From Blastocatellia bacterium (GTDB lineage: Bacteria > Acidobacteriota > Blastocatellia > HR10 > J050): 64,000 nucleotides of DNA. A program made the position numbers and the translations under genes. The notes below the pieces were generated by a model. The model was not told the DNA's origin. It made no database searches and saw only the letters and a list, made by a program, of their open reading frames with translations. Location: assembly GCA_025054955.1 (NCBI GenBank), contig JANWZE010000103.1, positions 1 to 64,000 on the forward strand, written 5' to 3'. Shown one piece after another: positions 49,516-64,000 of this stretch; position 1 is the stretch's first letter; every line of letters begins with the position of its first letter.

Positions 49516-49821
49516 GTGCGAGAGTTTGTCAAACGGCTTCCCAAAACATTGAGCAACATCGAGGATGTCAAACAGCTCGTTCGAGCATCTGGTTCGGTTG
49601 GGGCCAACTATATTGAAGCCAATGAGGCCTTGAGCAGGAAGGATTTTGTCATGAGGATCAAAATATGTCGGAAGGAGGCGAAAGAGAGCCACTATTGGCT
49701 ACGGCTGATCAATACCGGTGAAGATGTCGGGCTGGTGGACGAAAGAAACGGGTTGTTACAGGAGGCAAGAGAATTGACAGCTATTTTTGGCGCCATTGTG
49801 CAAAAGAGCGCGGGAGATTAA
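49516..49821 (+). CDS. Four-helix-bundle (S23 / 23S rRNA intervening-sequence) protein, start uncertain
   Basis: The first standard start is a GTG at 49516, which gives 101 residues: short for a family of about 115-130. VRASGSVGANYIEANEALSR, then KDFVMRIKICRKEAKESHYW and LRLI, is the diagnostic stretch. The usual N-terminal motif YDLEERTYEFAQRVREF reads in frame from 49477, but no ATG, GTG or TTG precedes it before a stop codon; the only nearby ATGs are out of frame. The gene may use an unusual start, have a frameshift, or be decaying. These proteins are small helical bundles of unknown role. One group is encoded in 23S rRNA insertions, and the Avd protein of diversity-generating retroelements shares the fold. 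Confidence 0.85.
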   Translation: MREFVKRLPKTLSNIEDVKQLVRASGSVGANYIEANEALSRKDFVMRIKICRKEAKESHYWLRLINTGEDVGLVDERNGLLQEARELTAIFGAIVQKSAGD

Positions 49822-49869
49822 GTTCTGAAGCCTTTCGCATTTTGAATTTTGGAATTTGAACCTGTTTCG

Positions 49870-50160
49870 GATTTCGAGCTTGGGATTTGGAGTTTCCCTC
49901 GAAGAGGGCTTGGGATTTGGAATTTCCCTCGAAGAGGGCTTGGGATTTGGAATTTCCCTCGAAGAGGGCTTTGGATTTTGAATTTGTTTCGGGTTTCGAG
50001 TTTCGGATTTGGAATTTCCCTCGAAGAGGGCTTGGGATTTGGAGTTTCCCTCGGAGAGGGCTTGGGATTTGGAATTTCCCTCGAAGGGGGCTTTGGATTT
50101 TGAATTTGTTTCGGATTTCGTGCTTGGGATTTGGAATTTCCCTCAAGGAGGGCCTTGGAT
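49870..50160. repeat. 30-bp tandem repeat array downstream of the four-helix-bundle gene
   Basis: Units of about 30 bases, TGGGATTTGGAATTTCCCTC then GAAGAGGGCT, recur in register at 49881, 49911 and 49941, and again after interruptions near 50010, 50040 and 50125. Interruptions read AATTTGTTTCGGGTTTCG. Each unit has the hairpin CCCTCGAAGAGGG. Unit content shows no unique spacers, so not CRISPR. The spacer 49822-50206 contains no gene. Confidence 0.85.
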
Positions 50161-50206
50161 TTTTTCAACTTTCTGAGAGCGCACTCGTTTGAGCGAGCAA
50201 CGACCA

Positions 50207-51688
50207 ATGAAAACCTTAAACCCCAGTTCCTCATCTCCGGCGCCCGGTACGCCGTCTGCCGCTGGCGCACCATCTTCTGCTCCCACGCTGGCGAGGCTAC
50301 TAAATCATCTGATCCTTGGCGGCCTCATCGTGGGGGTGCCGTTGTTGGCCTTGCAAACGTTCAGCGGGCCAGCGACTGTGGCGATAGCAAGCGTGATACT
50401 TTCGTTGTGGCTTCTGCACGCGGCCGTCTGTAAAAGAGCAGTGATTGTGTGGACACCCATCCATTGGACGTTGCTTGGATTGCTCGGCGTGGCGTTGGTG
50501 CAATGGTTGCCTCTGCCCGTAGAGTTGCATCCGGTTTCGTTTGGATATTCATTTGAAGGCTTACCGGTGCAGTTGGATCGCTGGACGGCGATCAGCCAGG
50601 ATCGGCACGCAACGGCTGCGGCTGCAGCTGTGTTGGCTGCATTGAGTGTTTTGTTTTTCGTCGCCACGAACCTGCTACAATCGGCTCGGCAGATTCGGCA
50701 ACTGGTGAAGGGGCTCACGATCATCGGATTTGCCATGGCGTTGGTGGCCGTGTTGGATCGTTTGTCGGACCCAAGTGATCCACTGCTGCGCGGCAGCGGC
50801 GCGTTTGGCCTGTATTATTATTCGATGGGCCGACTGGTGGGCTATATGGAGATGATCATGCCTCTGCCGTTGGCGATGATGCTCACAGCAGTGGCGCAGC
50901 GGGATGAATGGGCGTGGTATGGACTGGCAGCGATCACACTGGGCGTTGGAATTGTTTTAGCAGATGCGACCGGTGGTGTATTTGTGTTGGTTATTCAACT
51001 GGTGGCGCTCGTGCTGTTGCTCAGGAAACGGCATATTCGTTTGACCGAAGCGTCAGCCCGAAAGAGGCACGTCGTGTGGATCGGCGTCGGCGCAACGCTG
51101 ATCGTCGGGATGATAATCGGCGGTGCTGTCTGGTTTGGCACGCGGTCGGTGCCGAGAGCTATCCTGTCCGATGTGCAGATCAATTTCCCTGAGCTAGACC
51201 GGGCGCGGCAAGATGCGTCACAGGCTGATTATTTCTCTCGTTATTATGGGCGGGCAGGCATCTGGAAGGCTTCATTGCCGATGATCGCCGATTATCCCGT
51301 GATGGGCGTGGGCCTGGGCAGTTATCCCACTGCCTACACCCGCTATGATCCGGCCTCCGGCTTGTTTCTGGTTAACGCGGCTCACAACGACTATCTACAA
51401 CTCGTTTGTGAAACCGGACTGATCGGCGCACTCATCCTGATGCTATTTCTCTGGTCTTTGGTGAGGCTCTGTCAGCGGGCAATGAATGATGAGAACCCGT
51501 TTGGTTCAGCAGTCGCGGTCGGAGCGACGGTGGGATGCTTAGGGATACTAGCGCACAGTCTGGGCGATTTTCATTTGCAGGCGCCGGGCGCAGGGTTGCT
51601 GTTTTTGCTGTTGATCGCCGTGCTGATCGGCGTGTATCGGCTACAAGCTCATGGGGCGAACGCGTCCGGTGATGGGATGCCAAATTGA
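50207..51688 (+). CDS. O-antigen ligase/polymerase (Wzy_C family) membrane protein
   Basis: This protein is about 493 residues long from the ATG at 50207, with 10-12 membrane helices. A long outer loop near residues 320-390 holds YGRAGIWKASLPMIADYPVM, GVGLGSYPTAYTRYDPASG and NAAHNDYLQLVCETGLIGAL. The pattern R.GIW..S..M......G.GLG.Y and H-N-D-Y-L is the signature of Wzy_C proteins (WaaL/PglL/Wzy). It either polymerises repeat units or ligates the chain. Its position before the Wzc-like and Wza-like genes favours a polymerase. Confidence 0.88.
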   Translation: MKTLNPSSSSPAPGTPSAAGAPSSAPTLARLLNHLILGGLIVGVPLLALQTFSGPATVAIASVILSLWLLHAAVCKRAVIVWTPIHWTLLGLLGVALVQWLPLPVELHPVSFGYSFEGLPVQLDRWTAISQDRHATAAAAAVLAALSVLFFVATNLLQSARQIRQLVKGLTIIGFAMALVAVLDRLSDPSDPLLRGSGAFGLYYYSMGRLVGYMEMIMPLPLAMMLTAVAQRDEWAWYGLAAITLGVGIVLADATGGVFVLVIQLVALVLLLRKRHIRLTEASARKRHVVWIGVGATLIVGMIIGGAVWFGTRSVPRAILSDVQINFPELDRARQDASQADYFSRYYGRAGIWKASLPMIADYPVMGVGLGSYPTAYTRYDPASGLFLVNAAHNDYLQLVCETGLIGALILMLFLWSLVRLCQRAMNDENPFGSAVAVGATVGCLGILAHSLGDFHLQAPGAGLLFLLLIAVLIGVYRLQAHGANASGDGMPN

Positions 51689-51811: not shown

Positions 51812-54097
51812 GTGAGCGAACATTCAAATCAGGCTGGCGGACTTGCTCCAATCGGGGGAAACGAAATCGCGCGTCTGGGCAATCAGAGCAATATCCCTGC
51901 CGGTCAATTCTCGCCGTTAAGTCCATTTTCAGGTCCTGGTGAGCAACGCTTGAGGGACATTTGGTGGCGCTATTGGCGCGTGCTATGGAATCGGCGCTGG
52001 TTAATGTTGAGCGTGTTCGCTCTCGTGTTTGCCGGGTTTGCTGTTGAGGCATACCGCACGCCACCGGTTTACACGGCGACCGGAACCATTGCTGTCGAAG
52101 CAGTCCAGCAACAGGTGCTTGGCGAGTTTACCCCGACCAATCAAACGCAAGGCATTGTGCAGTTACAAATAGACATTTTGCAAAGCCGAATGCTGGCCAG
52201 CCGTGTGATTGACAAATTAAAACTTTGGGAACAACCGGAATTCGCCATTGCGCCGGGCTCGACCCACGAGGAGCGTGAACGGCAGCGGTCCTTGTTGATC
52301 AATACGTTTTTGGCTCAACTGAGTGTTGACGCCGAACAGGCGTGGAATCAGGGCGTGATTCGCTTGCATTACCGCTCGACCAATCCCCGCTTGGCCGCTC
52401 AAATCCTGAATACCCTGTTTGAGGAATTCATTGCTTATAACCGTGAATCCAATACCGAGGCGTTGGAATTTGCCCAAGAATGGCTGACAGAGCAATTGGC
52501 GCAAATCGAAAGCAAGCTGAAAAAATCCAGAGAAGAGCTGCTCAAATTCCAGCAGGGCACTGAGCTGCTCTATATGGGCAGCGACACGGAAGCCAATCCT
52601 GTGTTGGAGCAATTCAGTCAAGTCAAACAGCAACTGGCCGAAGCAGAGCTGGCCCGACTCAACGCTGAGATTCTCTACCAACGGGCGCTCAAAGAGGGCG
52701 CTGAGGCGTTGCCCTCGTCAGTTAAAGGCGATAGCCTGGCCGCCTTGGAAGACGAGCGCAAGCGAGTCGAAGCAGAACTAGCGCAACTGGGCGCCACATA
52801 CAAAGACGGCGCGCCGGCCATCCGGCGATTGAAAAGTCGCCTGGCCCTACTGAACGAGCAGATCGAAAAAAATCGCCTGCTCTCGCAAGAAGCGATCCTG
52901 GAAAATCTCAGAAACGAATTTGAAATCGCCGACCGGCGGTGGCGCGCGCTACGCGACGCGGTTGAAAAACAACGAGCCGAGATCATTGAACAAAACCGCG
53001 CTGCCCTGCAACTGAGTTTGCTCAAACGCGAAGCTGAAGTTGACGAAAAGCTCTTTCAGGTACTCTCGGAGCGGTTGCGTGGAACCGATTTGATGAAATC
53101 GCTGACACCCAATACCAACATCCGCATTGTTGATCGAGCCGAAATCCCATTGGCTCCCTCTGGGTCTAACAGCATCATGTTCCTCCGGGGTGGAATCATT
53201 GCCTTGGTACTGGCCGTTGGATTAGCCCTGTTGTTGGACTTGCTGGATGACAGCTTGAAGACCGTAGAGGATGTCGAAACAATGTTGAAGTTGCCCAGTT
53301 TGGGTTTAATTCCGTTAGCAATCAGTAGTAATGGGCGGTCCCTGCTGCCGCGTAAGTCGCCCAGTGAGGCCAGGCCATTGATCCTGAGAGCTGGCGAAGC
53401 AGAGAACCCGGCGTTTGCAGAGGCCTATCGTACATTGCGGACAGGTGTGTTGCTCTCCTCGGCGACGCACCCGCCCCGTACCATTGTCGTTACCAGTCAT
53501 GAAGCCCAAGCAGGCAAGACAACCACAGCTATCAACGTCGCCTTGGCGATGGCACAGGCGGGCAAGCGCGTGCTGCTGGTGGATGCCGATATGCGCCATC
53601 CCAGTTGCGCCAAATCGCTGGGCGTCCATGCGGCTGATGGGTTGAGTACATTGCTGGCTTCGGATGAGAAGCCGGTCACGATCTATCATGACTGTGGCGT
53701 CTCGCGCTTAGACTTGTTGCCGGCAGGACCGATACCACCAAATCCCTCCGAGCTGCTTAGTTCGGGCAAAATGCGTGTCCTGCTCGATTCATTCACGGCT
53801 AAGTACGATCAAATTATCATTGACACGCCGCCGTTGGGCCTGGTCTCCGATGCGCTGATGCTGGCCGCTATTGTTGACGGTGTGATCATTGTCACCAAGG
53901 CCGAACGGAATTCACGGCGCGGGCTGTTGCGGATCAAGGAGTCATTGTATAGCGTGAACGCGAGGATTTTAGGTGTCGTGCTCAACGCCGTGGATACTCG
54001 CCGACATCACAACGGCTACTATGGCAGCTATTATTACTACTACCACAGGCGTTCTGCTGGTGAAGAAATAACGGGCGGCGATGATCGAGCTGCTTAG
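51812..54097 (+). CDS. Wzc/GumC-type polysaccharide co-polymerase with tyrosine autokinase domain
   Basis: This 761-residue protein starts at a GTG with GGAGG five to six bases upstream. A Wzz domain with a membrane helix (about 70-90) opens the protein. A long coiled-coil periplasmic part follows (about 190-440, ending in DEKLFQVLSERLRGTDLMKS) and a second helix at about 465-485. The kinase domain has VTSHEAQAGKTTTAINVALA (Walker A), VLLVDADMRHPS (Walker A') and YDQIIIDTPPLG (Walker B). The C-terminus carries a Tyr cluster (YYGSYYYYYHRR, about 736-747), the autophosphorylation site that controls chain length and export. Its partner Wza-like gene is at 56572. Confidence 0.93.
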   Translation: MSEHSNQAGGLAPIGGNEIARLGNQSNIPAGQFSPLSPFSGPGEQRLRDIWWRYWRVLWNRRWLMLSVFALVFAGFAVEAYRTPPVYTATGTIAVEAVQQQVLGEFTPTNQTQGIVQLQIDILQSRMLASRVIDKLKLWEQPEFAIAPGSTHEERERQRSLLINTFLAQLSVDAEQAWNQGVIRLHYRSTNPRLAAQILNTLFEEFIAYNRESNTEALEFAQEWLTEQLAQIESKLKKSREELLKFQQGTELLYMGSDTEANPVLEQFSQVKQQLAEAELARLNAEILYQRALKEGAEALPSSVKGDSLAALEDERKRVEAELAQLGATYKDGAPAIRRLKSRLALLNEQIEKNRLLSQEAILENLRNEFEIADRRWRALRDAVEKQRAEIIEQNRAALQLSLLKREAEVDEKLFQVLSERLRGTDLMKSLTPNTNIRIVDRAEIPLAPSGSNSIMFLRGGIIALVLAVGLALLLDLLDDSLKTVEDVETMLKLPSLGLIPLAISSNGRSLLPRKSPSEARPLILRAGEAENPAFAEAYRTLRTGVLLSSATHPPRTIVVTSHEAQAGKTTTAINVALAMAQAGKRVLLVDADMRHPSCAKSLGVHAADGLSTLLASDEKPVTIYHDCGVSRLDLLPAGPIPPNPSELLSSGKMRVLLDSFTAKYDQIIIDTPPLGLVSDALMLAAIVDGVIIVTKAERNSRRGLLRIKESLYSVNARILGVVLNAVDTRRHHNGYYGSYYYYYHRRSAGEEITGGDDRAA

Positions 54098-54305: not shown

Positions 54306-55169
54306 ATGAAGAGAGAGATGAACACAACCATACTCATTTGGTTAGTGGTAGGCTCGTGTTTGATGGGGGCCGCGTGGGCTGAGTCGCCTCCCAAATTGCA
54401 GAAGCAACCGGTTGGCGCTCTTGCCGGTGAGAGCCAGTCGGTGTTGATCAATGGTGTTGCTGCTGAGCGCGGGACGACAGTCTTTAGCGGTAGCGAAATT
54501 CGCACGGGAGCAACGGCGGCGGCCGTCCATTTAACCGGCGGCGGTGGCCTTGTCTCTATCGCGCCGGAATCTCTGGTGAAGCTTGTGCGCGAAAAGGACA
54601 CGATCATTGCTGAAGTCAGTAAAGGCTCTGTGACCATGCGCAGTCCGTTAGCCAGCGTGGTAGTAGCGCCTGACCAGACAGTTCGTTCAGAGCCAAATAA
54701 CCTGTATACTGTTTCCACGTCCAGCGCCGGCTCAGTGGTAGAAAGCTTTCTCAAGGAAGTGGCCGTAAGGGCTGCCGATGGCGTTGTGAGGACCGTGGCT
54801 CCGAAGGCTCCTGTCACGGGTGGGCGGACGACTACGCCGTTGCAGGCTGGCGTTGGCGAGCCGGAACCGATCACGCCGGTTCGCGGCCCGTTTGTTGTGG
54901 CAAATTGTACGTTGACAGGCAACACGCTGATCGTATCAGGCGCGGTGGCTTGTAACGGTATCGCGGTTGCCGGTGCGTCGGTCACGGTGCAGGTAACAAC
55001 AAAAGGGTTACCTCCAGTGATTCTGCGCCAAACGGTAACCGCAGACGAGGCTGGCCGCTTTAGGACGACATTTACAAACGATGCCCTATCAAGAGGCGGC
55101 ACAGCCCGCATCTCGGCCGTCACCAATATCCCGGCTTGCGGGACGGCTGCTGGTTCGTGCCAGTTCTAG
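54306..55169 (+). CDS. Secreted FecR-domain-like protein
   Basis: This 287-residue protein has a signal peptide (TTILIWLVVGSCLMGAAWA, cut after AWA). VFSGSEIRTGATAAAVHLTG, SIAPESLVKLVREKDTIIAE and VSKGSVTMRSPLASVVVAPD follow the FecR/iron-dicitrate-sensor-like beta domain used as a periplasmic scaffold, here without its usual anti-sigma helix. The C-terminal part (about 195-287) looks like a carboxypeptidase-regulatory Ig-like domain with NCTLTGNTLIVSGAVACNG. AGGAGG lies upstream. The function is unknown. Its place between the Wzc-like and Wza-like genes suggests an accessory to export or the mature polymer. Confidence 0.7.
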   Translation: MKREMNTTILIWLVVGSCLMGAAWAESPPKLQKQPVGALAGESQSVLINGVAAERGTTVFSGSEIRTGATAAAVHLTGGGGLVSIAPESLVKLVREKDTIIAEVSKGSVTMRSPLASVVVAPDQTVRSEPNNLYTVSTSSAGSVVESFLKEVAVRAADGVVRTVAPKAPVTGGRTTTPLQAGVGEPEPITPVRGPFVVANCTLTGNTLIVSGAVACNGIAVAGASVTVQVTTKGLPPVILRQTVTADEAGRFRTTFTNDALSRGGTARISAVTNIPACGTAAGSCQF

Positions 55170-55189
55170 CGTTGAAGGAGGAGACACGT

Positions 55190-56476
55190 ATGAAGACGAG
55201 AACATTTGCCCTAGTCGTCGGTTTGTGTTTAGCGCTGTTGCCGCTGCTTGGCCAACCGGCTGATTCAGTCAATACGGTATCGGCGCAAGCCACGGTGACG
55301 GAGATCGAACCCAACAACAACAAGGCGCAAGCTCAACTCCTCCGATTGGCTGCTGGAGAAACCGTCGTTGTCGAAGGACGTGTCGGTCCTAATGATGGCG
55401 GTTCGCTCGTGAGCGAGTTGCTGCGATTAGAGACGCCGTTTGGCAATCCTCTATTCACGCCGCCAACAGAGATTCTGCCACGCGACCCGATCGAAGATTG
55501 GTTTGCCATCGACGTGCGAGGTTCGCTTGAGTATTCGGTTGAACTTCAGTGGCCTGATGGCACGGCGAACTTGAGCAATTGGACCTTGGGTGACATTGCT
55601 GCCCAGATTTATTCGGACCAACTGGTCAGCATTCACGTTGCGTCAACGCCAACGGGACGGCCGGAAATTGAGCCGAATCGAATTTACTACACCTATGATG
55701 ACCGCCGGAGCGAAGTTCAGGGAGGACGACTGACCATTCCTGCGACGTCACGCTATTACGTGACTGTCTCCAATACAGGCACGGGGAGTCAGCAACCGGT
55801 CAGTTATCGGCTGGTGCTCACCAGTCCCCGTCGTGGGACGACCCGCACGGTGTTGGATGCTGTGCGTGGGCCGACGGTCGCCAATCCGGTGGTGCCGGCT
55901 GACGTCGGCGCAAACCGCATGCGCGTTGTGCAACGACTGACGCCGACTGAATATCCGGCGCGATTGGATGAGGTCGGTCTGGTTCAGTTTGACATCGAAG
56001 GACAGCAAGTGCTCAACGAGTCATTGGACCTGATCGTCCTGGTGGACCCACAAGGGACGGGAAACCCGGCCGCCGCCAGGCCAGTCTTGACGCGTCGCGT
56101 GCGCATCCAAGCGCTCAACGCGCTCAATAGCTATTCGGTGCGAGATGCCAATATCGTGGTTCAGTCGGGCGACATCTATGCCGGATTTGAAGTTCCCGAA
56201 ACAGGCCTTGGTTTGCATCTGCCGTTTGATCTGGATAAGGCCGGCTATGGCCGCAGCTTTGTGTCCGTAGATGGCGGCCGGACCTACCGCTACATCAGTT
56301 TGATTTCGTTTGACAAGCTGATTCCGTTGGTCGGGAATGCCGTGATCGAAACCGCGTTGACGATCAATCCGCGGCCCGGCAAACACGCCGACGCGCCGGA
56401 ACCTACGCGGGTGCGAACCAATCTGCCGATCATCCCGGCGCCGGTCAAGAGCGTCTCGCTGGTGGACGTGAACTGA
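55190..56476 (+). CDS. Secreted beta-rich protein, PPC-like
   Basis: This 428-residue protein starts at the ATG at 55190, which has GGAGGAG seven bases upstream. The N-terminal signal peptide is TFALVVGLCLALLPLLG. The mature part opens VTEIEPNNNKAQAQLLRLAA, a strong PPC (bacterial pre-peptidase C-terminal) start, with a DWFAIDVRGSLEYSVELQWP region and SRYYVTVSNTGTG later, all characteristic. The last 180 residues I do not recognise. No catalytic domain is visible. It is likely a periplasmic or surface protein that accompanies polysaccharide export. Confidence 0.7.
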   Translation: MKTRTFALVVGLCLALLPLLGQPADSVNTVSAQATVTEIEPNNNKAQAQLLRLAAGETVVVEGRVGPNDGGSLVSELLRLETPFGNPLFTPPTEILPRDPIEDWFAIDVRGSLEYSVELQWPDGTANLSNWTLGDIAAQIYSDQLVSIHVASTPTGRPEIEPNRIYYTYDDRRSEVQGGRLTIPATSRYYVTVSNTGTGSQQPVSYRLVLTSPRRGTTRTVLDAVRGPTVANPVVPADVGANRMRVVQRLTPTEYPARLDEVGLVQFDIEGQQVLNESLDLIVLVDPQGTGNPAAARPVLTRRVRIQALNALNSYSVRDANIVVQSGDIYAGFEVPETGLGLHLPFDLDKAGYGRSFVSVDGGRTYRYISLISFDKLIPLVGNAVIETALTINPRPGKHADAPEPTRVRTNLPIIPAPVKSVSLVDVN

Positions 56477-56571: not shown

Positions 56572-57603
56572 ATGCGTGTGTTGAGCGTCGTCTTACTGCT
56601 TGTGTTGAACGTGCAGACGCTGAGCTTGGCTCAAGCTACGTCACAGGAAAGCGCCCAACCGGTGACGACACAGACTGCCGAGCAGCCGGTTTATGCGCCG
56701 GATGATTACATCATTCGACCGGGTGACGTGGTCAGTGTGCGGGTGTTGCGTGAACCGGATATGAGCGGCGATATGCAAGTGTCGGCCAAGGGCTACATTC
56801 GGATTCCGTTTTTGCGCGAGCCGATTCTGGCGGCTGGTCGAACGGCTTGGCAACTGGCTGATGTCATCCGTCAGCAGGTTGAGGAGATTCTCTGGGAGCC
56901 GCAGGTTGACGTACAGGTGAAGCACGGGCAGCAGGATGTCGCCTATGTATTGGGCGAAGTCAACCGAGCAGGCCCAGTGCCGGTGCGTGTTGGTACCCGG
57001 TTGCTCAATGTCTTGGTGGCTGCCGGTGGACTCTCCAAGAATGCCGGAAACGTCGCTTATATTCTTCGCGACCAAATGCGACCACCTGATGAACAGAAGA
57101 GCAACCCAGAGCAAACAGCCGAGCCTGAGGTGAGGCTGACATCAGTGCTGGAAATTGTGGATATACGCGGCCTATTGCGCGGCCATGTGGAGCTGGCTTC
57201 GCTGGAGCGATTCAATCGGCCCATTTATCCGGGCGACGTCATCAGCATTCCCGAAGCCGACCGCGTGTTTGTGGGCGGCAATGTGCATACACCGGGGGCC
57301 TTCGAGCTGCGCGGCGCCTTAACACTGACGCAGGCGCTGATGCTGGCCGGCGGCCCAAAACCCGATTCGCGGAAGAAGGAAATCCGATTAGTGCGTCCTG
57401 GACCTGACGGGGCGAGCGTTTCCGAGCAACTGGTCAACTTGGACGCTATCGAAAAGGACGCCAGCAAAGACATTCGTCTACAAGCCAATGACATTGTCTT
57501 TGTGCCTGTCTCCCGCGCCAAGACGGTTGTCTCAACCATGTTGAGCGCATTTCTTTTGCAGTCAGTTGTGGGCGTGCCGGTCTATCTGATTTTCCGCCGA
57601 TGA
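56572..57603 (+). CDS. Wza/GumB-type outer-membrane polysaccharide export protein
   Basis: This 343-residue protein has a signal peptide (LSVVLLLVLNVQTLSLAQA). The Poly_export domain reads YIIRPGDVVSVRVLREPDMS, GDMQVSAKGYIRIPFLREPI and LAAGRTAWQLADVIRQQVEE. Two SLBB domains follow: VAYVLGEVNRAGPVPVRVGT and VFVGGNVHTPGAFELRGALT, each with LNVL/LTQAL..AGG. It ends with a hydrophobic segment (AFLLQSVVGVPVYLIF). No lipobox Cys is visible, so it may be anchored by its C-terminal helix. It forms the export channel with the kinase/co-polymerase at 51812. Confidence 0.93.
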   Translation: MRVLSVVLLLVLNVQTLSLAQATSQESAQPVTTQTAEQPVYAPDDYIIRPGDVVSVRVLREPDMSGDMQVSAKGYIRIPFLREPILAAGRTAWQLADVIRQQVEEILWEPQVDVQVKHGQQDVAYVLGEVNRAGPVPVRVGTRLLNVLVAAGGLSKNAGNVAYILRDQMRPPDEQKSNPEQTAEPEVRLTSVLEIVDIRGLLRGHVELASLERFNRPIYPGDVISIPEADRVFVGGNVHTPGAFELRGALTLTQALMLAGGPKPDSRKKEIRLVRPGPDGASVSEQLVNLDAIEKDASKDIRLQANDIVFVPVSRAKTVVSTMLSAFLLQSVVGVPVYLIFRR

Positions 57604-57632: not shown

Positions 57633-58961
57633 ATGATGTGGGTCAACGTGCAATCTATTAAGCTGACGCCGCGATGGAAGCGGTGGTGCGCCGTGCTGCT
57701 GTTGAGCTGTGCGCTGGGTTACGTGCTGCTGCATGTCTCAGCCGAAGTGCGCGGCGCTCGGCTGACCTATGTCGAGGGTGATCCGGAACGGCTCAAGGCT
57801 GCATTAGCCGTTTATCCCGTTCAAGCCGATGTGCACAGGCGGCTCGGTGCTGTGTATTTGTCTGATCCGTGGCGGTTCGATCCAGCGCAAGCCGTCTCTC
57901 ACTACGAAATGGCCGTTCGCCTTGAACCATTCACGTGGAGCGCCTGGTTGAATCTGGGCTACGGCTACGAGCAGCAAGGCGATGCAGAGCGCGCTGAACG
58001 CGCCTATTTGACTGGCGTGGAGCTAGCGCCGCGCTACTTTTATCCGCGCTGGTTGTATGGGAATTTCCTGCTTCGGCACGGGGCGATAGAGCGCTCGTTC
58101 GATCAATTGCAATACGCCGCCGACATCCGTCCCTGGGCCGTCGGCAGTATATGCTCGATGATTTGGCAGATCACAGGCGGCCAACCTGACGCGGTCGTGC
58201 AGTTCAGTAGCCGGCTCAAGTCCGGTCAAGCGCGGGCATCCGTTTGCCAATACCTGCTGACGCAGCAAGCGTATCAGCCAGCCGTGGCCGTGTGGTCTGC
58301 GATTGAGGAGACAGACCCGGCGCGAATGACGGCCAGTCGCTGGTTGCTGAGCACACTTCGCGGAGCTGGCCAGTGGTCGCTGGCGCGTCAGGTCTGGGAG
58401 GAGGTTGTGCGCAAGCAGGTCGGTGGAAAAGCCGATGCTTCATCAGCGGAGTGGGCCTTGTGGGATGGCGGCTTCGAGCACGAGACCTCTCTGGGCGCAT
58501 TTGAGTGGAGCCTCACGAGCACCCAAGACGTCAGTGTGGTGCGTGATCAATCCGAGCGGTTTGAAGGAAGCCGCTCGCTGCGGCTCGAATTCCTCCGCCA
58601 TCAAAAGGTGAATTTCAATGGCGTGTCTCAAGACCTGTGGGTGAAGCCATCAACGCAGTACCGGCTCCAGTTCTACTATCGCACGGAAAAACTGCCGGAG
58701 GTGAACGGCCTGCTCATCGCGCTCAGTGATGCGCAAGAGCCGACGCGATTCAACATGGAATCAGCGCCGCTCGGTAATCCACAGCAGTGGACCAATCAAC
58801 ATATTCAGTTCACAACGCCGGCAGGGACACAGGTTCTCCGGTTACACATTCTGCGCCGACCGGTTCAGCAGCTTTATGACTTCATCAGGGGCAAGGTCTG
58901 GTTCGATGCGTTCCGTTTGGAAGAAGTGAAATACGAGAACAAGGACAAGGGAAATGACTGA
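57633..58961 (+). CDS. Membrane-anchored TPR protein with C-terminal jelly-roll domain
   Basis: This 442-residue protein has one N-terminal membrane helix (WCAVLLLSCALGYVLLHV, about 19-36). TPR repeats lie at about residues 60-240 (SHYEMAVRLEPFTWSAWLNL, GYGYEQQGDAERAERAYLTG). The C-terminal part (about 280-430) opens WDGGFEHETSLGAFEWSLT and contains EGSRSLRLEFLRHQ, a carbohydrate-binding-module-like jelly roll. Such proteins follow polysaccharide export genes in many clusters, and binding of the growing chain or of assembly partners is plausible. The start could be the first or second of two adjacent ATG codons. Confidence 0.75.
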   Translation: MMWVNVQSIKLTPRWKRWCAVLLLSCALGYVLLHVSAEVRGARLTYVEGDPERLKAALAVYPVQADVHRRLGAVYLSDPWRFDPAQAVSHYEMAVRLEPFTWSAWLNLGYGYEQQGDAERAERAYLTGVELAPRYFYPRWLYGNFLLRHGAIERSFDQLQYAADIRPWAVGSICSMIWQITGGQPDAVVQFSSRLKSGQARASVCQYLLTQQAYQPAVAVWSAIEETDPARMTASRWLLSTLRGAGQWSLARQVWEEVVRKQVGGKADASSAEWALWDGGFEHETSLGAFEWSLTSTQDVSVVRDQSERFEGSRSLRLEFLRHQKVNFNGVSQDLWVKPSTQYRLQFYYRTEKLPEVNGLLIALSDAQEPTRFNMESAPLGNPQQWTNQHIQFTTPAGTQVLRLHILRRPVQQLYDFIRGKVWFDAFRLEEVKYENKDKGND

Positions 58962-59024
58962 CGCGGAGAATGCAAGCCTGACGTCAGGCGCCGCTGCTCA
59001 GTCTCTTCGAGGAAGGTGGGCACG

Positions 59025-60146
59025 ATGTCATTGCAGCCGCATGAGCGGTTAATCCTGCTATGCGCCAGGACGCGCCTGGACGATGCGCTACGAGAGCGCA
59101 TTTGCGCCGCCGTCGAGCAGCCTCTCTGCTGGCCGACGTTTGTGGCGCAAGCTAAGGAGCAAGAGCTCACGCCGCTCATGTATCTGAATCTCAAGCGGGC
59201 AGCCGCTGCGCTTGTGCCGCCTGAGACGTTGTCTCACCTGCGAGCACTGACGCAGCGCACTCTGATTCGCAACGCCCTTTTGTCAGAAGAGCTTTTTGCG
59301 CTCATCAAGCTGTTCAAGCGCGAAGGTATTGCATTCATCCCGCTGAAAGGCATTTTGTTGGCTGAGGCTGTTTACGGGGATATGAGCTTGCGTCCGATCC
59401 GTGATCTGGACGTGATGGTGCGCTCCGAAGACCTGCCTCGCGTCACTTCGCTGTTAGCGCAGCAGGGATTCTCTTGTCGTAGCGCTGACCCAGAGAAAGA
59501 GAGCCGCTCTCCCACCAAGCATGATCTGGCTTTCACCAAATCTCGAAGCGCAGTGAAAGTCTTACTGGAGCTGCATTGGAAACTCAAAGATCGCGTTTAT
59601 CGGTTACCCGAAGAGATGATCTGGAACCATCGCGTTGCCTATGCTTGGCGCGGTGAGACGGTGATGATTCTATCGCCTGAGATGACACTGCTCCATCTGG
59701 TGCATCACCTCAATGCCAATGCTTACTCGTTGAAGGTCCTGGTGGATGTTGCTGAGACGCTGCGTGCATATCAGGAGGAGCTGGACTGGGATCAACTGGA
59801 AGCGCTGGCCGCGCGCTGCGGCATGATGAGGAATCTGGTGGTAGCCTTGGAGTGCGCCAACGCAGTGTTGGGTGCGCCCGTGCCGATAAAGGCGCGACAA
59901 ATGGCTCCAGCCCTCGTCCGAGAACGAAGATGGTTGTGCGCGTTGGTGCGAGACCCACGCTGGTATTTCAGCCGCCGCGCTCAATTGATCCAGCGTCATG
60001 GAAATGTGCGTAACTTGTTTTCTGCGTTGTTTGTTGATGGGACGCCATCACAGCTATGGCAGGCCGTTCGCAGTGTTGGCAGAGACATTTCGTTGACCGG
60101 TTTGGTTCGGTCGGGCTTGAGAATGTTGGCGCCGCCATCAACGTAA
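59025..60146 (+). CDS. Nucleotidyltransferase-family protein (NTP_transf_5)
   Basis: This 373-residue protein starts at the ATG at 59025, preceded at eight bases by GGAAGG; an in-frame GTG at 59016 overlaps that site. IAFIPLKGILLAEAVYGDMS followed by LRPIRDLDVMV is the family core, with the two catalytic aspartates in RDLDV; SPEMTLLHLVHHLNANAYSL is typical of the C-terminal half. Members of this family appear in paeninodin-type lasso peptide clusters as tailoring enzymes and also in exopolysaccharide loci. The lasso-type genes 1.3 kb downstream suggest it belongs to them, with a glycosyltransferase gene in between. Confidence 0.82.
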   Translation: MSLQPHERLILLCARTRLDDALRERICAAVEQPLCWPTFVAQAKEQELTPLMYLNLKRAAAALVPPETLSHLRALTQRTLIRNALLSEELFALIKLFKREGIAFIPLKGILLAEAVYGDMSLRPIRDLDVMVRSEDLPRVTSLLAQQGFSCRSADPEKESRSPTKHDLAFTKSRSAVKVLLELHWKLKDRVYRLPEEMIWNHRVAYAWRGETVMILSPEMTLLHLVHHLNANAYSLKVLVDVAETLRAYQEELDWDQLEALAARCGMMRNLVVALECANAVLGAPVPIKARQMAPALVRERRWLCALVRDPRWYFSRRAQLIQRHGNVRNLFSALFVDGTPSQLWQAVRSVGRDISLTGLVRSGLRMLAPPST

Positions 60147-60170
60147 GCATTGATCACGTATCGTCAGACT

Positions 60171-61355
60171 ATGTGGATAGCATCAAGACATCGGCAACCC
60201 ATCAAGCTCTGCGTGATAAGCGCGAGTCGCTACCTGGGCGGCTTTGAAAAAACGATCTATCAACTGTGTCAGCGGCTGGATGCAGAGCAATTTGATCTGT
60301 CAGTTTGTTTGCTGAACCGCGAAGGGCCGTTTGTCGAGTTGATGCGCCGGGAGTTTACTGATCGGGTTTATCTTTTTGATCTGAATTGGCCGTTGAAGCC
60401 GAGCGTGTTGCTAAGACTGATGCGGCACTTGCGGCAAACCGACCCGGACATCATTCATGCGTTTGGGTTCAAGGCCGATGCGGTGAGTCGTTGGGTGCGC
60501 GGGTCGCGGTCCAAGCCGGCGCTGATTTCCGCTGTGGCTAACCCAGCCCTGCCTCATGCGACGTGGCGGCGCTGGCTCAATCTAGCAACTGGTCAGCGCG
60601 TTGATGTCTACTGGGCAGACTGTCAAGCCCGCGCCCAGCATGGTGTTCGGCAGTTGGCCGTGCCAGCGGACAAAGTCAAAGTCATTCCGACCGGCATTGA
60701 ACACGAGTCCAATGGCGCATGCAATACTGGCGGAGCGACCGTCAGAGCCCAGTTAGGCATCGAAGCCGAGACGCCGATCATCGCCTCGGTCGGCAATCTC
60801 CGCTTCATTAAGGGGCATCATCTGGTAATCGAGATGGCGTCCGTGGTGCTTCAGAAGTTTCCTCGCGCCGTATTTCTATTCATCGGCGCTGATATGAGTC
60901 GGGGCGCGCTGCCGGCGCTAGCCGCGCAGAGTGGATGCGGCGATCATTTTCGTTTCATAGGATTTTGCCACGATCCATGGCCTTACATTCAGGCGGCTGA
61001 TGTGATCGTTTCGCCATCTTTGTCGGATGAGCTGCCGCAAGCTTTACTCGAATCTATGCTCGCCGGCAAGCCGATCGTTGCTTCCATGGTCGGCGGTATC
61101 ACTGAAGTCGTTGAGCATGGCGTGAACGGCTTGCTGGTGCCAGCCGGTGACAGTCAGTCGTTGGCGCACGCTGTGATGCAATTGCTCGAAAATCCCAAAC
61201 AGAGGCAGCGGCTTGGTCGCCAGGCCAGCCAGACGGTGCAACGTCGGTTTACTGTAGACCGAATGATTGCTGAGTTTGAAATGCTCTACGCTCATCTGGC
61301 CATGGCCGACGTTGTTCCAGCTCCAGCGGTGGTCAGTCAGGGAAGCGGCGTATGA
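60171..61355 (+). CDS. GT4 family glycosyltransferase
   Basis: This protein is about 394 residues long from the ATG at 60171; a TTG at 60150 is also in frame. IKLCVISASRYLGGFEKTIY, DPDIIHAFGFKADAVSRWVR, IASVGNLRFIKGHHLVIEMA and SPSLSDELPQALLESMLAGK followed by PIVASMVGGITEVV form a full GT4 site (E..PQ.LLE.M). It lies inside the lasso-type gene group and its stop overlaps a small open frame (ATGA). Its product could glycosylate the polysaccharide or, more speculatively, the peptide product. Confidence 0.85.
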   Translation: MWIASRHRQPIKLCVISASRYLGGFEKTIYQLCQRLDAEQFDLSVCLLNREGPFVELMRREFTDRVYLFDLNWPLKPSVLLRLMRHLRQTDPDIIHAFGFKADAVSRWVRGSRSKPALISAVANPALPHATWRRWLNLATGQRVDVYWADCQARAQHGVRQLAVPADKVKVIPTGIEHESNGACNTGGATVRAQLGIEAETPIIASVGNLRFIKGHHLVIEMASVVLQKFPRAVFLFIGADMSRGALPALAAQSGCGDHFRFIGFCHDPWPYIQAADVIVSPSLSDELPQALLESMLAGKPIVASMVGGITEVVEHGVNGLLVPAGDSQSLAHAVMQLLENPKQRQRLGRQASQTVQRRFTVDRMIAEFEMLYAHLAMADVVPAPAVVSQGSGV

Positions 61356-61450
61356 TTGAGAACGTTCGTTTGAGCGGAGGCTATGACGAAATGGATGTTG
61401 AAAATGGCCAAGGGCTGTTCTTGTCGGCCTGCCAGTGGGTCGTGTTTTAA
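61352..61450 (+). CDS. Small open frame, weak candidate for a peptide precursor
   Basis: This 32-residue frame begins at an ATG that overlaps the glycosyltransferase stop codon as ATGA, with AGGGA eight bases upstream. Residues 9-32 read GGYDEMDVENGQGLFL, then SACQWVVF. A Gly at residue 9 has an acidic residue at its 7th and 9th positions, and a Gly at residue 10 has one at its 8th, which fits the Gly-to-Asp/Glu ring rule of lasso peptides. Against this: the leader would be only 8-9 residues and lacks the Thr at -2 and the RRE-binding YxxP pattern. Another frame on the same strand overlaps it (61383-61475). It may be chance. Confidence 0.2.
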   Translation: MIENVRLSGGYDEMDVENGQGLFLSACQWVVF

Positions 61451-61482
61451 CGAGGCTATTTGGATGTGGAGGTAGATGGAAA

Positions 61483-61749
61483 ATGAAAGTGATCGTTCCA
61501 GAGGGTGTACTAGCGCGTGAGCTACAGGGTGAATCTGTCCTCTTAAATCTGAACACGGAGTCTTATTTCGGACTGGATGAGGTGGGAACCGATATGTGGC
61601 GCGCGTTGACCACGTCCGAATCGGTCGAAGCGGCATATCAGATGCTGTTGACGCAATACGACGTGGAACCAGAGCGATTACGGCAAGACCTGAATGAATT
61701 GATCGAAAAGCTGGTGGAGCAAGGGTTGATTGAAATCCGCGATGCGTAA
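61483..61749 (+). CDS. PqqD-like RRE protein (lasso B1-type)
   Basis: This 88-residue protein starts at the ATG at 61483 with GGAGG ten bases upstream; a longer frame from a GTG at 61435 has no such site. VLARELQGESVLLNLNTESY, FGLDEVGTDMWRALTTSESV and LRQDLNELIEKLVEQGLIEI give the whole PqqD/RRE winged-helix plan: an N-terminal beta hairpin with the NL.T..YF.L turn, then three helices. RRE proteins bind the leader of a RiPP precursor and present it to the processing enzymes. A B2-type protease gene and a cyclase-like gene follow directly. Confidence 0.9.
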   Translation: MKVIVPEGVLARELQGESVLLNLNTESYFGLDEVGTDMWRALTTSESVEAAYQMLLTQYDVEPERLRQDLNELIEKLVEQGLIEIRDA

Positions 61750-61783
61750 TTCTGGGCAAATTCCTAGAGGTTGTGATGCTGTG

Positions 61784-62281
61784 ATGAAGAGCTTGAACAA
61801 ATTCCTACAGTTGTCTTGGCTCGAACGTTGGTTGTTCGTGCAGGCGTTGTTGCTGCTGCCGTTGACGGTCATGGCGTTGCGCATCGTAGGTTTCGCTCGC
61901 TGGCAGGCGGTGTTAGCACGGTTCGCGCCGCTGTGTGAGCTTTTGACTCCTGATTCAGACAAATTGGATGAGCTTCCGACTAGCGATGCAGGCAGCGTGA
62001 TTCACCGGATACGGCGCACCGCCTGGATCATGCGTGCGGCGCGGCGGCGAGTGCCTTTGAATGTGACCTGTCTGCCGCAATCGCTGACGCTGTGGTGGTT
62101 GCTGCGTCGGCAGGGCATTGCCAGTGCGCTGCGCATCGGTGTGCGCAAAGAGGGCGGGTTGCTAGAAGCGCATGCCTGGGTGGAATGTGGAGGCATTATC
62201 GTTAATGGTGGAAGCGATGCGCACCGGCGGTTTGCTGCGTTCGAGTCGGCCATCGCGCCACGTGAGGTGATCTCTCTATGA
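61784..62281 (+). CDS. Lasso peptide B2-type cysteine protease
   Basis: This protein is 165 residues long from the ATG at 61784; GTG at 61781 and ATG at 61742 are alternatives, and AGAGG lies 10-13 bases upstream of the first two. A hydrophobic stretch near residues 15-35 precedes the transglutaminase-like core. NVTCLPQSLTLWWLLRRQGI holds the nucleophile Cys96, and EAHAWVECGGIIVNGG holds His130. The third member of the triad is not obvious, since the usual Asp region reads Asn. B2 proteins cut the leader off a lasso precursor bound by the RRE protein. The next gene overlaps by 4 bp (ATGA). Confidence 0.87.
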   Translation: MKSLNKFLQLSWLERWLFVQALLLLPLTVMALRIVGFARWQAVLARFAPLCELLTPDSDKLDELPTSDAGSVIHRIRRTAWIMRAARRRVPLNVTCLPQSLTLWWLLRRQGIASALRIGVRKEGGLLEAHAWVECGGIIVNGGSDAHRRFAAFESAIAPREVISL

Positions 62282-64000
62282 GCGGCATTGTTGGTATTGT
62301 CATGTTGGACGGTGCGCCGGTTGATCGTCAGTTACTGCGGCGCATGACTGAGTTCATGACGTACCGCGGGCCTGATGCGCAAGCCGTTTGGAGTGACGGG
62401 CATGTCGGTTTTGGCCATACGCTGCTGCGCACAACGTTTGAGTCGGAATACGAACAGCAACCGTGCAGTCTGGATGGCCAGGTGTGGATCACTGCCGATG
62501 CACGGGTGGATGGCCGCGCTGATCTGATTCAAGCGCTAGCAGCTCATGGTCGAGATGTTCGTCACACAGCCACCGATGTGGAATTGATCTTGCACGCCTA
62601 CCACGTGTGGGGCGAAGCGTGTGTCAACCATTTGCTCGGCGATTTCGCCTTCGCCATTTGGGACGGACACCGACGGCGATTATTCTGTGCCCGCGACCAT
62701 TTTGGCTTGAAGCCGTTTTACTATGCCCATCTGCCCAATTGCTTGGTGTTCAGCAATACCCTCAATTGTGTCAGATTGCACCCCGATGTATCAGACCGGT
62801 TGAACGATCTGGCCATTGCTGATTTTCTTATGTTTGGTGGAAATCAAGATTTGGAGACCACCTCATTTGCCGATATTCGGCGGTTGCCGCCGGCTCACGT
62901 TTTAACGTGGTCAGACGGCCAGCTTCGCCAGGTTCGCTACTGGTCATTACCGACTGACGGTTCTATCCGTTATAAGCGCGCCGATGATTATGTCGCTCAT
63001 TTTGGCGAATTGCTTCGCGCAGCGGTTGCCGATCGGTTGCGAACCACTCACGTTGGCATTTGGATGAGCGGGGGTCTTGATTCAACCTCGGTCGCGGCCA
63101 TGGCCAAGGAAATTTTATCTGAGCAGTCCGCCCCATTTGATCTGCGCGCCTATACGGTTTTCCTCGATTGGTCGCTTCCTGATGGGGACCGCGACTACGC
63201 CAGAATTATGGCTGATAGTCTCGGCATTCCGATCCACTTTGTGATATTGAACGACTACAAGCCGTATGACCGTTGGGACGACCCAGCGGTGCAGCGGCCT
63301 GAACCGAACTATAACCTGTTTGAGGCTATGTTCGTAGACGAATACAACCAGGTGGCCCCGCATGCCCGGGTCGTACTAGGAGGCGATGGTGGCGATGCGC
63401 TGCTGGCCCGGACTCGCTCGTATTTTGTTGATCTTGTCAAAAAGCTACGGTGGGGCCGGCTGCTGGCTGATGTCAGTCGTTATGTCTGGTCATACAGAAA
63501 ACTGCCGCCGCTTGGGTTCAGGTCAGCACTCAAACGATTCCTGGCAGTAGCGCCACCTCCTGATCATCCCCCGTTTCCTGAGTGGTTGAACCCATCGCTG
63601 GCCGAGCAGTTGAACCTTCGAGCGCGGTGGGAACAAGTCAATCGAGGGCCAGACGTGCGGCATCCAACGCATCCTGATGCTGCCCGTTATTTGCTCTACC
63701 CAACGTGGGTGAATGATTTTGAATCGTATGATCCCGGTGTTCACGGTTTTCCTCTGGAAACTCGGCTGCCTTATTTTGACGTTCGCTTGGTCAATTATGT
63801 TTTGGCGATTCCGCCCGTGCCGTGGTGCATTGATAAAGCGTTGCTTCGTCTCCTCGGAAAGGGACGATTACCCGAATGTGTACGCCTTCGTCCCAAGACG
63901 CCTTTGGCCAGCGACCCAACCATAGCACTACTTCAACGTGAGGATATGCAATGGCTCAATCACTTTGAGGATGTTCCTGAACTGTCGAAGTATGTGGATT
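62278..64000 (+). CDS. Asparagine-synthetase-like ATP-dependent cyclase, lasso C-type (right end cut)
   Basis: 574 complete codons are visible and the frame is open at the window edge. The glutaminase-like domain begins MSGIVGIVMLDG: Ser stands where true amidotransferases have the nucleophile Cys2. YRGPDAQAVWSD, GDFAFAIWDGHRRRLFCARD and HFGLKPFYYA keep the fold. The synthetase part keeps the ATP loop WMSGGLDSTSVAAMAKE (Ser264, Asp268) and LGGDGGDALLAR. Loss of Cys2 with an intact ATP site is the pattern of lasso cyclases such as McjC, which use ATP to join the peptide N-terminus to an Asp/Glu side chain. The gene overlaps the B2-type gene, supporting this reading over metabolic asparagine synthesis. 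Confidence 0.85.
   Translation, partial: MSGIVGIVMLDGAPVDRQLLRRMTEFMTYRGPDAQAVWSDGHVGFGHTLLRTTFESEYEQQPCSLDGQVWITADARVDGRADLIQALAAHGRDVRHTATDVELILHAYHVWGEACVNHLLGDFAFAIWDGHRRRLFCARDHFGLKPFYYAHLPNCLVFSNTLNCVRLHPDVSDRLNDLAIADFLMFGGNQDLETTSFADIRRLPPAHVLTWSDGQLRQVRYWSLPTDGSIRYKRADDYVAHFGELLRAAVADRLRTTHVGIWMSGGLDSTSVAAMAKEILSEQSAPFDLRAYTVFLDWSLPDGDRDYARIMADSLGIPIHFVILNDYKPYDRWDDPAVQRPEPNYNLFEAMFVDEYNQVAPHARVVLGGDGGDALLARTRSYFVDLVKKLRWGRLLADVSRYVWSYRKLPPLGFRSALKRFLAVAPPPDHPPFPEWLNPSLAEQLNLRARWEQVNRGPDVRHPTHPDAARYLLYPTWVNDFESYDPGVHGFPLETRLPYFDVRLVNYVLAIPPVPWCIDKALLRLLGKGRLPECVRLRPKTPLASDPTIALLQREDMQWLNHFEDVPELSKYVD

Follow-up and report, generated by a model that had tools for sequence, protein, structure and literature searches.

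A probable class II lasso peptide pathway that continues from polysaccharide export genes in a Blastocatellia bacterium

The window analysed here, a stretch of 64,000 nucleotides from a Blastocatellia bacterium, ends inside a gene cluster that very probably encodes a class II (Gly1-Asp9) lasso peptide pathway and its lasso product, judging from the enzymes and from a precursor gene just past the window edge. By its position the cluster lies inside an exopolysaccharide (EPS) operon: the EPS export genes, then N, a GT4 gene, B1, B2 and C, form a single co-directional run, which the window cuts inside C. A first-pass annotation of the window had described nucleotidyltransferase, B1, B2 and Cys2-less C genes, in company with a GT4 gene, after genes for Wzc, Wza and a TPR protein, and all of these were found in that place and orientation. 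The contig (C103) runs to 65949, which is 1949 bp beyond the window, and carries the following features.

50189-51688, + strand: Wzy_C, O-antigen ligase/polymerase-like protein of the EPS group (PF04932, 5e-18)
51812-54097, + strand: Wzc-like chain-length/tyrosine autokinase (TIGR01007 above cut-off; Wzz, AAA_31)
54306-55169, + strand: protein between Wzc and Wza (no Pfam or NCBIfam match)
55136-56476, + strand: second protein between Wzc and Wza (no Pfam or NCBIfam match)
56572-57603, + strand: Wza-like polysaccharide export protein (PF02563, SLBB above cut-off)
57633-58961, + strand: TPR protein (TPR families)
59016-60146, + strand: N, nucleotidyltransferase family, candidate phosphate-glycosylating enzyme (PF14907, 4.7e-55)
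60150-61355, + strand: GT4 glycosyltransferase, between N and B1 (PF00534, 1e-35)
61435-61749, + strand: B1, discrete RRE, PqqD-like (PF05402 above cut-off)
61730-62281, + strand: B2, leader peptidase, Transglut_core3 (NF033537, 88.9 bits against a cut-off of 33)
62278-64191 (62278-64000 within the window), + strand: C, lasso macrolactam cyclase, Cys2-less (best family NF033535)
64148-64294, past the window end, still on C103: A, lasso precursor of 48 aa (leader MMQAQEKLTKKSYGSPKLLTYGTFGQLTK, core GTPAGANKDGGMMPNNKTD)
64437-65501, beyond the window: K, HprK-like kinase (TIGR04352, 2.6e-9, and PF07475, 7.6e-5, both under cut-off)
from ~65538, truncated at 65949 where the contig stops: PRMT-like methyltransferase (PF06325, 2.3e-9)

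The first-pass annotation had seen no ordinary precursor, which is correct inside the window but not for the contig, where a canonical precursor, A, overlaps the end of C; it was missed because the window ends at 64000. The ORF covers the last 44 bp of C and is preceded by a GGGAGG Shine-Dalgarno sequence, and the peptide has the make-up of a lasso precursor, with the YxxPxL recognition motif (YGSPKLLTYG), Thr at -2 (LTK ahead of the cleavage site), Gly1 and Asp9 (GTPAGANKD). A cyclase search over 84,980 species genomes yielded 80 loci from other genomes, and a strict leader pattern was matched 76 times in the 1.5 kb that follow C on its 3′ side, these matches falling in 67 of the 80 loci, against just 13 matches outside this flank in 1.3 Mb; those 13 also resemble lasso precursors, from second clusters or other gene orders. 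Six additional loci carry a precursor in another position (second cluster or other gene order). The presence of a precursor behind C in 67 of the 80 relatives indicates a lasso peptide cluster rather than a borrowed EPS enzyme set, and the pattern that would have spoken against it, an enzyme set recurring across genomes and never with a precursor, was not what we found. The enzyme set B1-B2-C-A-K is kept across Acidobacteriota, Cyanobacteriota, Gammaproteobacteria, Rokubacteria, Chloroflexota and others, often accompanied by a methyltransferase, an ABC exporter and N. The lasso reading proposed from the window is thus supported by both the precursor and the HPr-kinase-like gene K just beyond 64000. 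We also observed several loci (L047, L062, L083 and L097) with two or three different tandem precursors per cyclase, and archaeal loci (L089, L091 and L106; Methanobacteriaceae) in which lasso-type precursors accompany B1-B2-C-K but are encoded on the other strand.

The core enzymes B1, B2 and the Cys2-less C together make up the set of a class II split-B lasso cluster. For B1, whose true start may lie further downstream, near 61486, the Pfam PqqD cut-off was exceeded, the best NCBIfam model was lasso_PqqD_Bac (3.5e-15, under cut-off), and the lasso RRE TbiB1, solved in complex with its leader (5v1u), was matched at 7e-9. B2, the sole PF13471 gene in the genome, may truly start at 61784, and its catalytic Cys and His (C114 and H148) are invariant among homologues. 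PDB sequence searches with B2 and K returned nothing useful. The best model for C was the lasso isopeptide cyclase NF033535 (1e-109, 367.6 bits; the strict cut-off of 525 is not reached), ahead of the asparagine synthase model at 226.5 bits; its N-terminus reads MSGIV, with Ser2 and no Cys2, and the PP-loop SGGLDS is kept.

From Wza onward the intergenic gaps are 29, 54, 3 and 79 bp, followed by overlaps, and gaps this short mean that the TPR gene and N are spaced like members of one operon. The lasso genes are probably co-transcribed with the EPS polymerisation and export operon, as this spacing suggests. In a scan of the sequence, promoter-like sites were not in excess and terminator-like sites were at about chance level, so that the scan neither shows nor breaks an operon. 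Window positions 49781-50192 are an intergenic region in which the overlapping frames translate into recurring SLRGKFQIPSP-like units, a pattern that probably reflects a short tandem repeat.

The attachment to EPS genes described from the window is genuine, and other genomes show it more often than chance predicts. A Wza gene stands beside the lasso set in 8 of 36 loci, compared with 0.41 expected from the Wza density of the same genomes, and collapsing these neighbours to three lineages gives a Poisson tail of 0.009. In a second sample, not picked by cyclase similarity and comprising 396 genomes of the phylum with 80 strong B2 places, seven of these places had Wzc no more than ~10 kb away (0.54 expected); Wza taken by itself showed no enrichment in this sample (2 found, ~1 expected at the other sample's density), and most B2 places had no EPS export genes within 10 kb. 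The lasso-EPS association is therefore above chance but a minority arrangement. One layout among the EPS-adjoined loci is B1-B2-C-A-K followed on the same strand by TPR-ligase-Wza-Wzc (L047, L049, L039, L054, L071 and L079), and L043 has the same order as L047 and L049, cut after the ligase; TPR homologues adjoin the lasso set in all seven, with K-to-TPR spacings of 90 bp in L047 and 47 bp in L049. The window has the reverse order, with the EPS genes first, L069 has Wzc-ligase adjoining K and B1, and L075 and L076 represent a Gammaproteobacterial form. Mapped onto the cyclase tree, the EPS label was scattered, with 14 changes and clustering no greater than that of shuffled labels; this scatter speaks against a single origin of the link, though contig ends hide some neighbours. 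Hot-spot gene exchange could be the source of the association. Elsewhere in the genome of the window (G000, contig C25:18387-42462), a second locus pairs two genes of asparagine-synthase-like type with one for Wza.

Of the genes expected beyond 64000, the precursor and the HPr-kinase-like gene were present, but a lasso ABC exporter was not found: there is no PF00664 gene on C103 or on contig C114, where the assembly break at the junction could hide one, and in L062, a relative of the same class, an exporter was likewise not seen within the cluster. When C114 is reversed, it opens with 126 bp that match the end of K exactly, followed by a full methyltransferase whose DNA is 94% identical to the end of C103 (C103:65360-65949 against C114:58800-59309, reversed). 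C114 may be the true continuation of C103, a strain variant or a tandem K-methyltransferase copy, and the assembly was broken there by either a tandem copy of this kind or strain variation. Downstream of the methyltransferase on C114 lies a PhyH-type dioxygenase (L193:6899-7717), possibly an extra tailoring enzyme. Since no exporter was found on C103, on C114 or in L062, export by another route, possibly along with the polysaccharide, is conceivable.

It is rather likely that this is an ordinary lasso cluster whose product is secreted free, as an antimicrobial, a signal or otherwise, and that the EPS genes adjoin it because polysaccharide islands collect mobile cassettes, with no functional link. 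On the lasso product this account and our preferred one are at one; they part only over coupling, so that confidence in the two overlaps. It fits the absence of EPS export genes near most related lasso loci, the scatter of the EPS label on the cyclase tree, as repeated local swaps predict, and the occurrence in many relatives of their own ABC exporter. It accommodates less readily the number of Wza and Wzc neighbours, which exceeds what the gene density of these genomes would predict, the short gaps (47-90 bp) that separate the lasso set from the TPR gene on the same strand, in the window as in L047 and L049, the persistence of the association through different gene orders, and the lack of a dedicated exporter on C103 and C114. 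That the product is functionally coupled to the polysaccharide is a possibility that we hold only tentatively and think rather unlikely.

Accounts without a peptide product fare far worse. That the cluster is decayed, or that the small ORF is a chance frame, might be argued from a single short ORF in one genome, lying over the last 44 bp of C with the contig ending soon after, but the concentration of leader matches just 3′ of C, the frequency of the same overlap among relatives and the intact motifs of all the enzymes make this very improbable. The first-pass annotation had put forward, as an alternative, that B1, B2 and C now serve to make amide bonds on a substrate linked to the polysaccharide, for which the EPS neighbours and the occurrence of asparagine-synthase-like amidotransferases in EPS loci could be cited (C scores 197 bits with the XrtA/EPS amidotransferase model TIGR03108), but this can be practically dismissed, as precursors accompany the set here and in most relatives, C falls far below the TIGR03108 cut-off of 816.9 and fits the lasso cyclase better, and B1 and B2 would lack a role if no leader peptide were made.

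Within the preferred reading, a lasso pathway, the genes around the core enzymes point to tailoring. In K, the residues H160, GKS, D198/D199 and K245 are conserved among 74 homologues, and the HprK-type His-Lys-Asp-Asp set is complete (H160, K181/K245, D198, D199; motif from PMC9266682). In N, K111-G112, R126, D130 and D132 are invariant in 32 homologues and a DxD is present; several of the EPS-linked relatives lack N. There is a precedent in pseudomycoidin, in which PsmK phosphorylates and PsmN adds a sugar onto the phosphate (PMC9266682, PMC8498205), and by this analogy we slightly favour tailoring of the lasso product by K and N. Full-length homologues of the methyltransferase carry PRMT_C. 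The C-terminal 85 residues of the methyltransferase (L027:14069-14323, L193:7931-8185) are conserved and helical; a fused RRE was considered for this domain and is not claimed, as profile comparison was negative and the AF2 model all-helical, with PqqD and TbiB1 among insignificant Foldseek matches (E ~3-5).

A further clue lies at the C-terminus of the core. Among 47 cores from the cyclase clade to which the window belongs, its own core included, 38 have [KR][TS] with no more than five residues after it, compared with 7.5 on average and 16 at maximum for shuffled tails; shared descent raises a count of this kind, but the cores are otherwise highly diverse. In the sister clade the signature was found in 2 of 29 cores and a terminal Ser in 13 of 29. 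The window core ends in NNKTD, without the C-terminal Ser that is the target of paeninodin-type kinases (PMC9266682, PMC8498205), and LppK, a kinase related to them, does not take Thr at the target position (PMC13381572); for these reasons the Lys-Thr pair, and the [KR][TS] signature generally, is a hypothetical candidate site for K. The literature search, which was not exhaustive, met no description of this signature, and it is apparently undescribed.

The closest known systems are paeninodin and pseudomycoidin, phosphorylated and phosphoglycosylated class II peptides of Bacillota, which share with the present cluster the split B1/B2, the Cys2-less C, the HprK-like kinase, the nucleotidyltransferase, a YxxP/WxxP leader and Thr at -2 (PMC9266682, PMC8498205, PMC13381572). 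They differ in that the core here ends in NKTD and not in Ser, the leader has YxxP and not WxxP, a GT4 and a PRMT-like methyltransferase are added, no ABC exporter was found and the run continues from EPS genes. The label "paeninodin-type" given to the window is therefore approximate: the kinase agrees with it, but because the C-terminal Ser is absent we do not class the cluster as such, although the pathway works like that of paeninodin and pseudomycoidin. Lasso and LPP clusters with a paeninodin-like enzyme set have been reported inside capsular polysaccharide loci of Bacilli (PMC13381572), so that a lasso cluster in a polysaccharide locus is not new in kind; those clusters belong to Bacillota and have a SipW-like peptidase and a second RRE (PMC13381572), whereas the present ones belong to Acidobacteriota and other Gram-negatives and lie beside Wza/Wzc, with no SipW-like gene seen. 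Our literature search on lasso peptides with O-antigen ligase, polysaccharide export or a C-terminal threonine gave nothing relevant, the Bacilli report having surfaced separately. In an Acidobacteriia soil cluster, BGC 44.1, the order is D1-D2-B1-B2-C-A and no product was detected (PMC9064862). This order is that of relatives L043, L045, L047 and L079; the window, in contrast, has no D1-D2 pair beside B1, and an EPS neighbourhood is not discussed in PMC9064862. The XrtA/exosortase EPS systems (TIGR03108, TIGR04352) likewise have asparagine-synthase-like and HprK-like genes near EPS genes, but C and K are far under the cut-offs of these models, and the present locus also has B2 and a lasso precursor.

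The sequence, together with the known functions of the families, supports a pathway in which B1 binds the leader through YxxPxL, B2 cleaves after LTK, and C activates Asp9 and closes the nine-residue ring with Gly1. Thr18, within the K/R-T/S signature, might then be phosphorylated by K, and N, perhaps with the GT4 enzyme, could put a sugar on the phosphate as in pseudomycoidin, while the methyltransferase would contribute one further mark. The most speculative step concerns the fate of the product, which may leave with, or remain in, the envelope polysaccharide, given the failure to find a lasso ABC exporter and the position of the genes after Wza and Wzc. We regard as a long shot the general form of this proposal, a polysaccharide-anchored lasso peptide in Acidobacteriota and some other Gram-negatives, whose Lys/Arg-Thr tag would be turned into a phospho-sugar handle by K, and by N where present, for export or joining by Wza/Wzc/Wzy_C.

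Lasso peptides are normally viewed as free secreted molecules. A conserved tag, a tailoring kinase and sugar-type enzymes, found recurrently in polysaccharide operons and in the present case with no exporter of their own in sight, suggest another location or route for the product, and such routing may help to explain why cloned acidobacterial lasso clusters have yielded no detectable product in extracts (PMC9064862).
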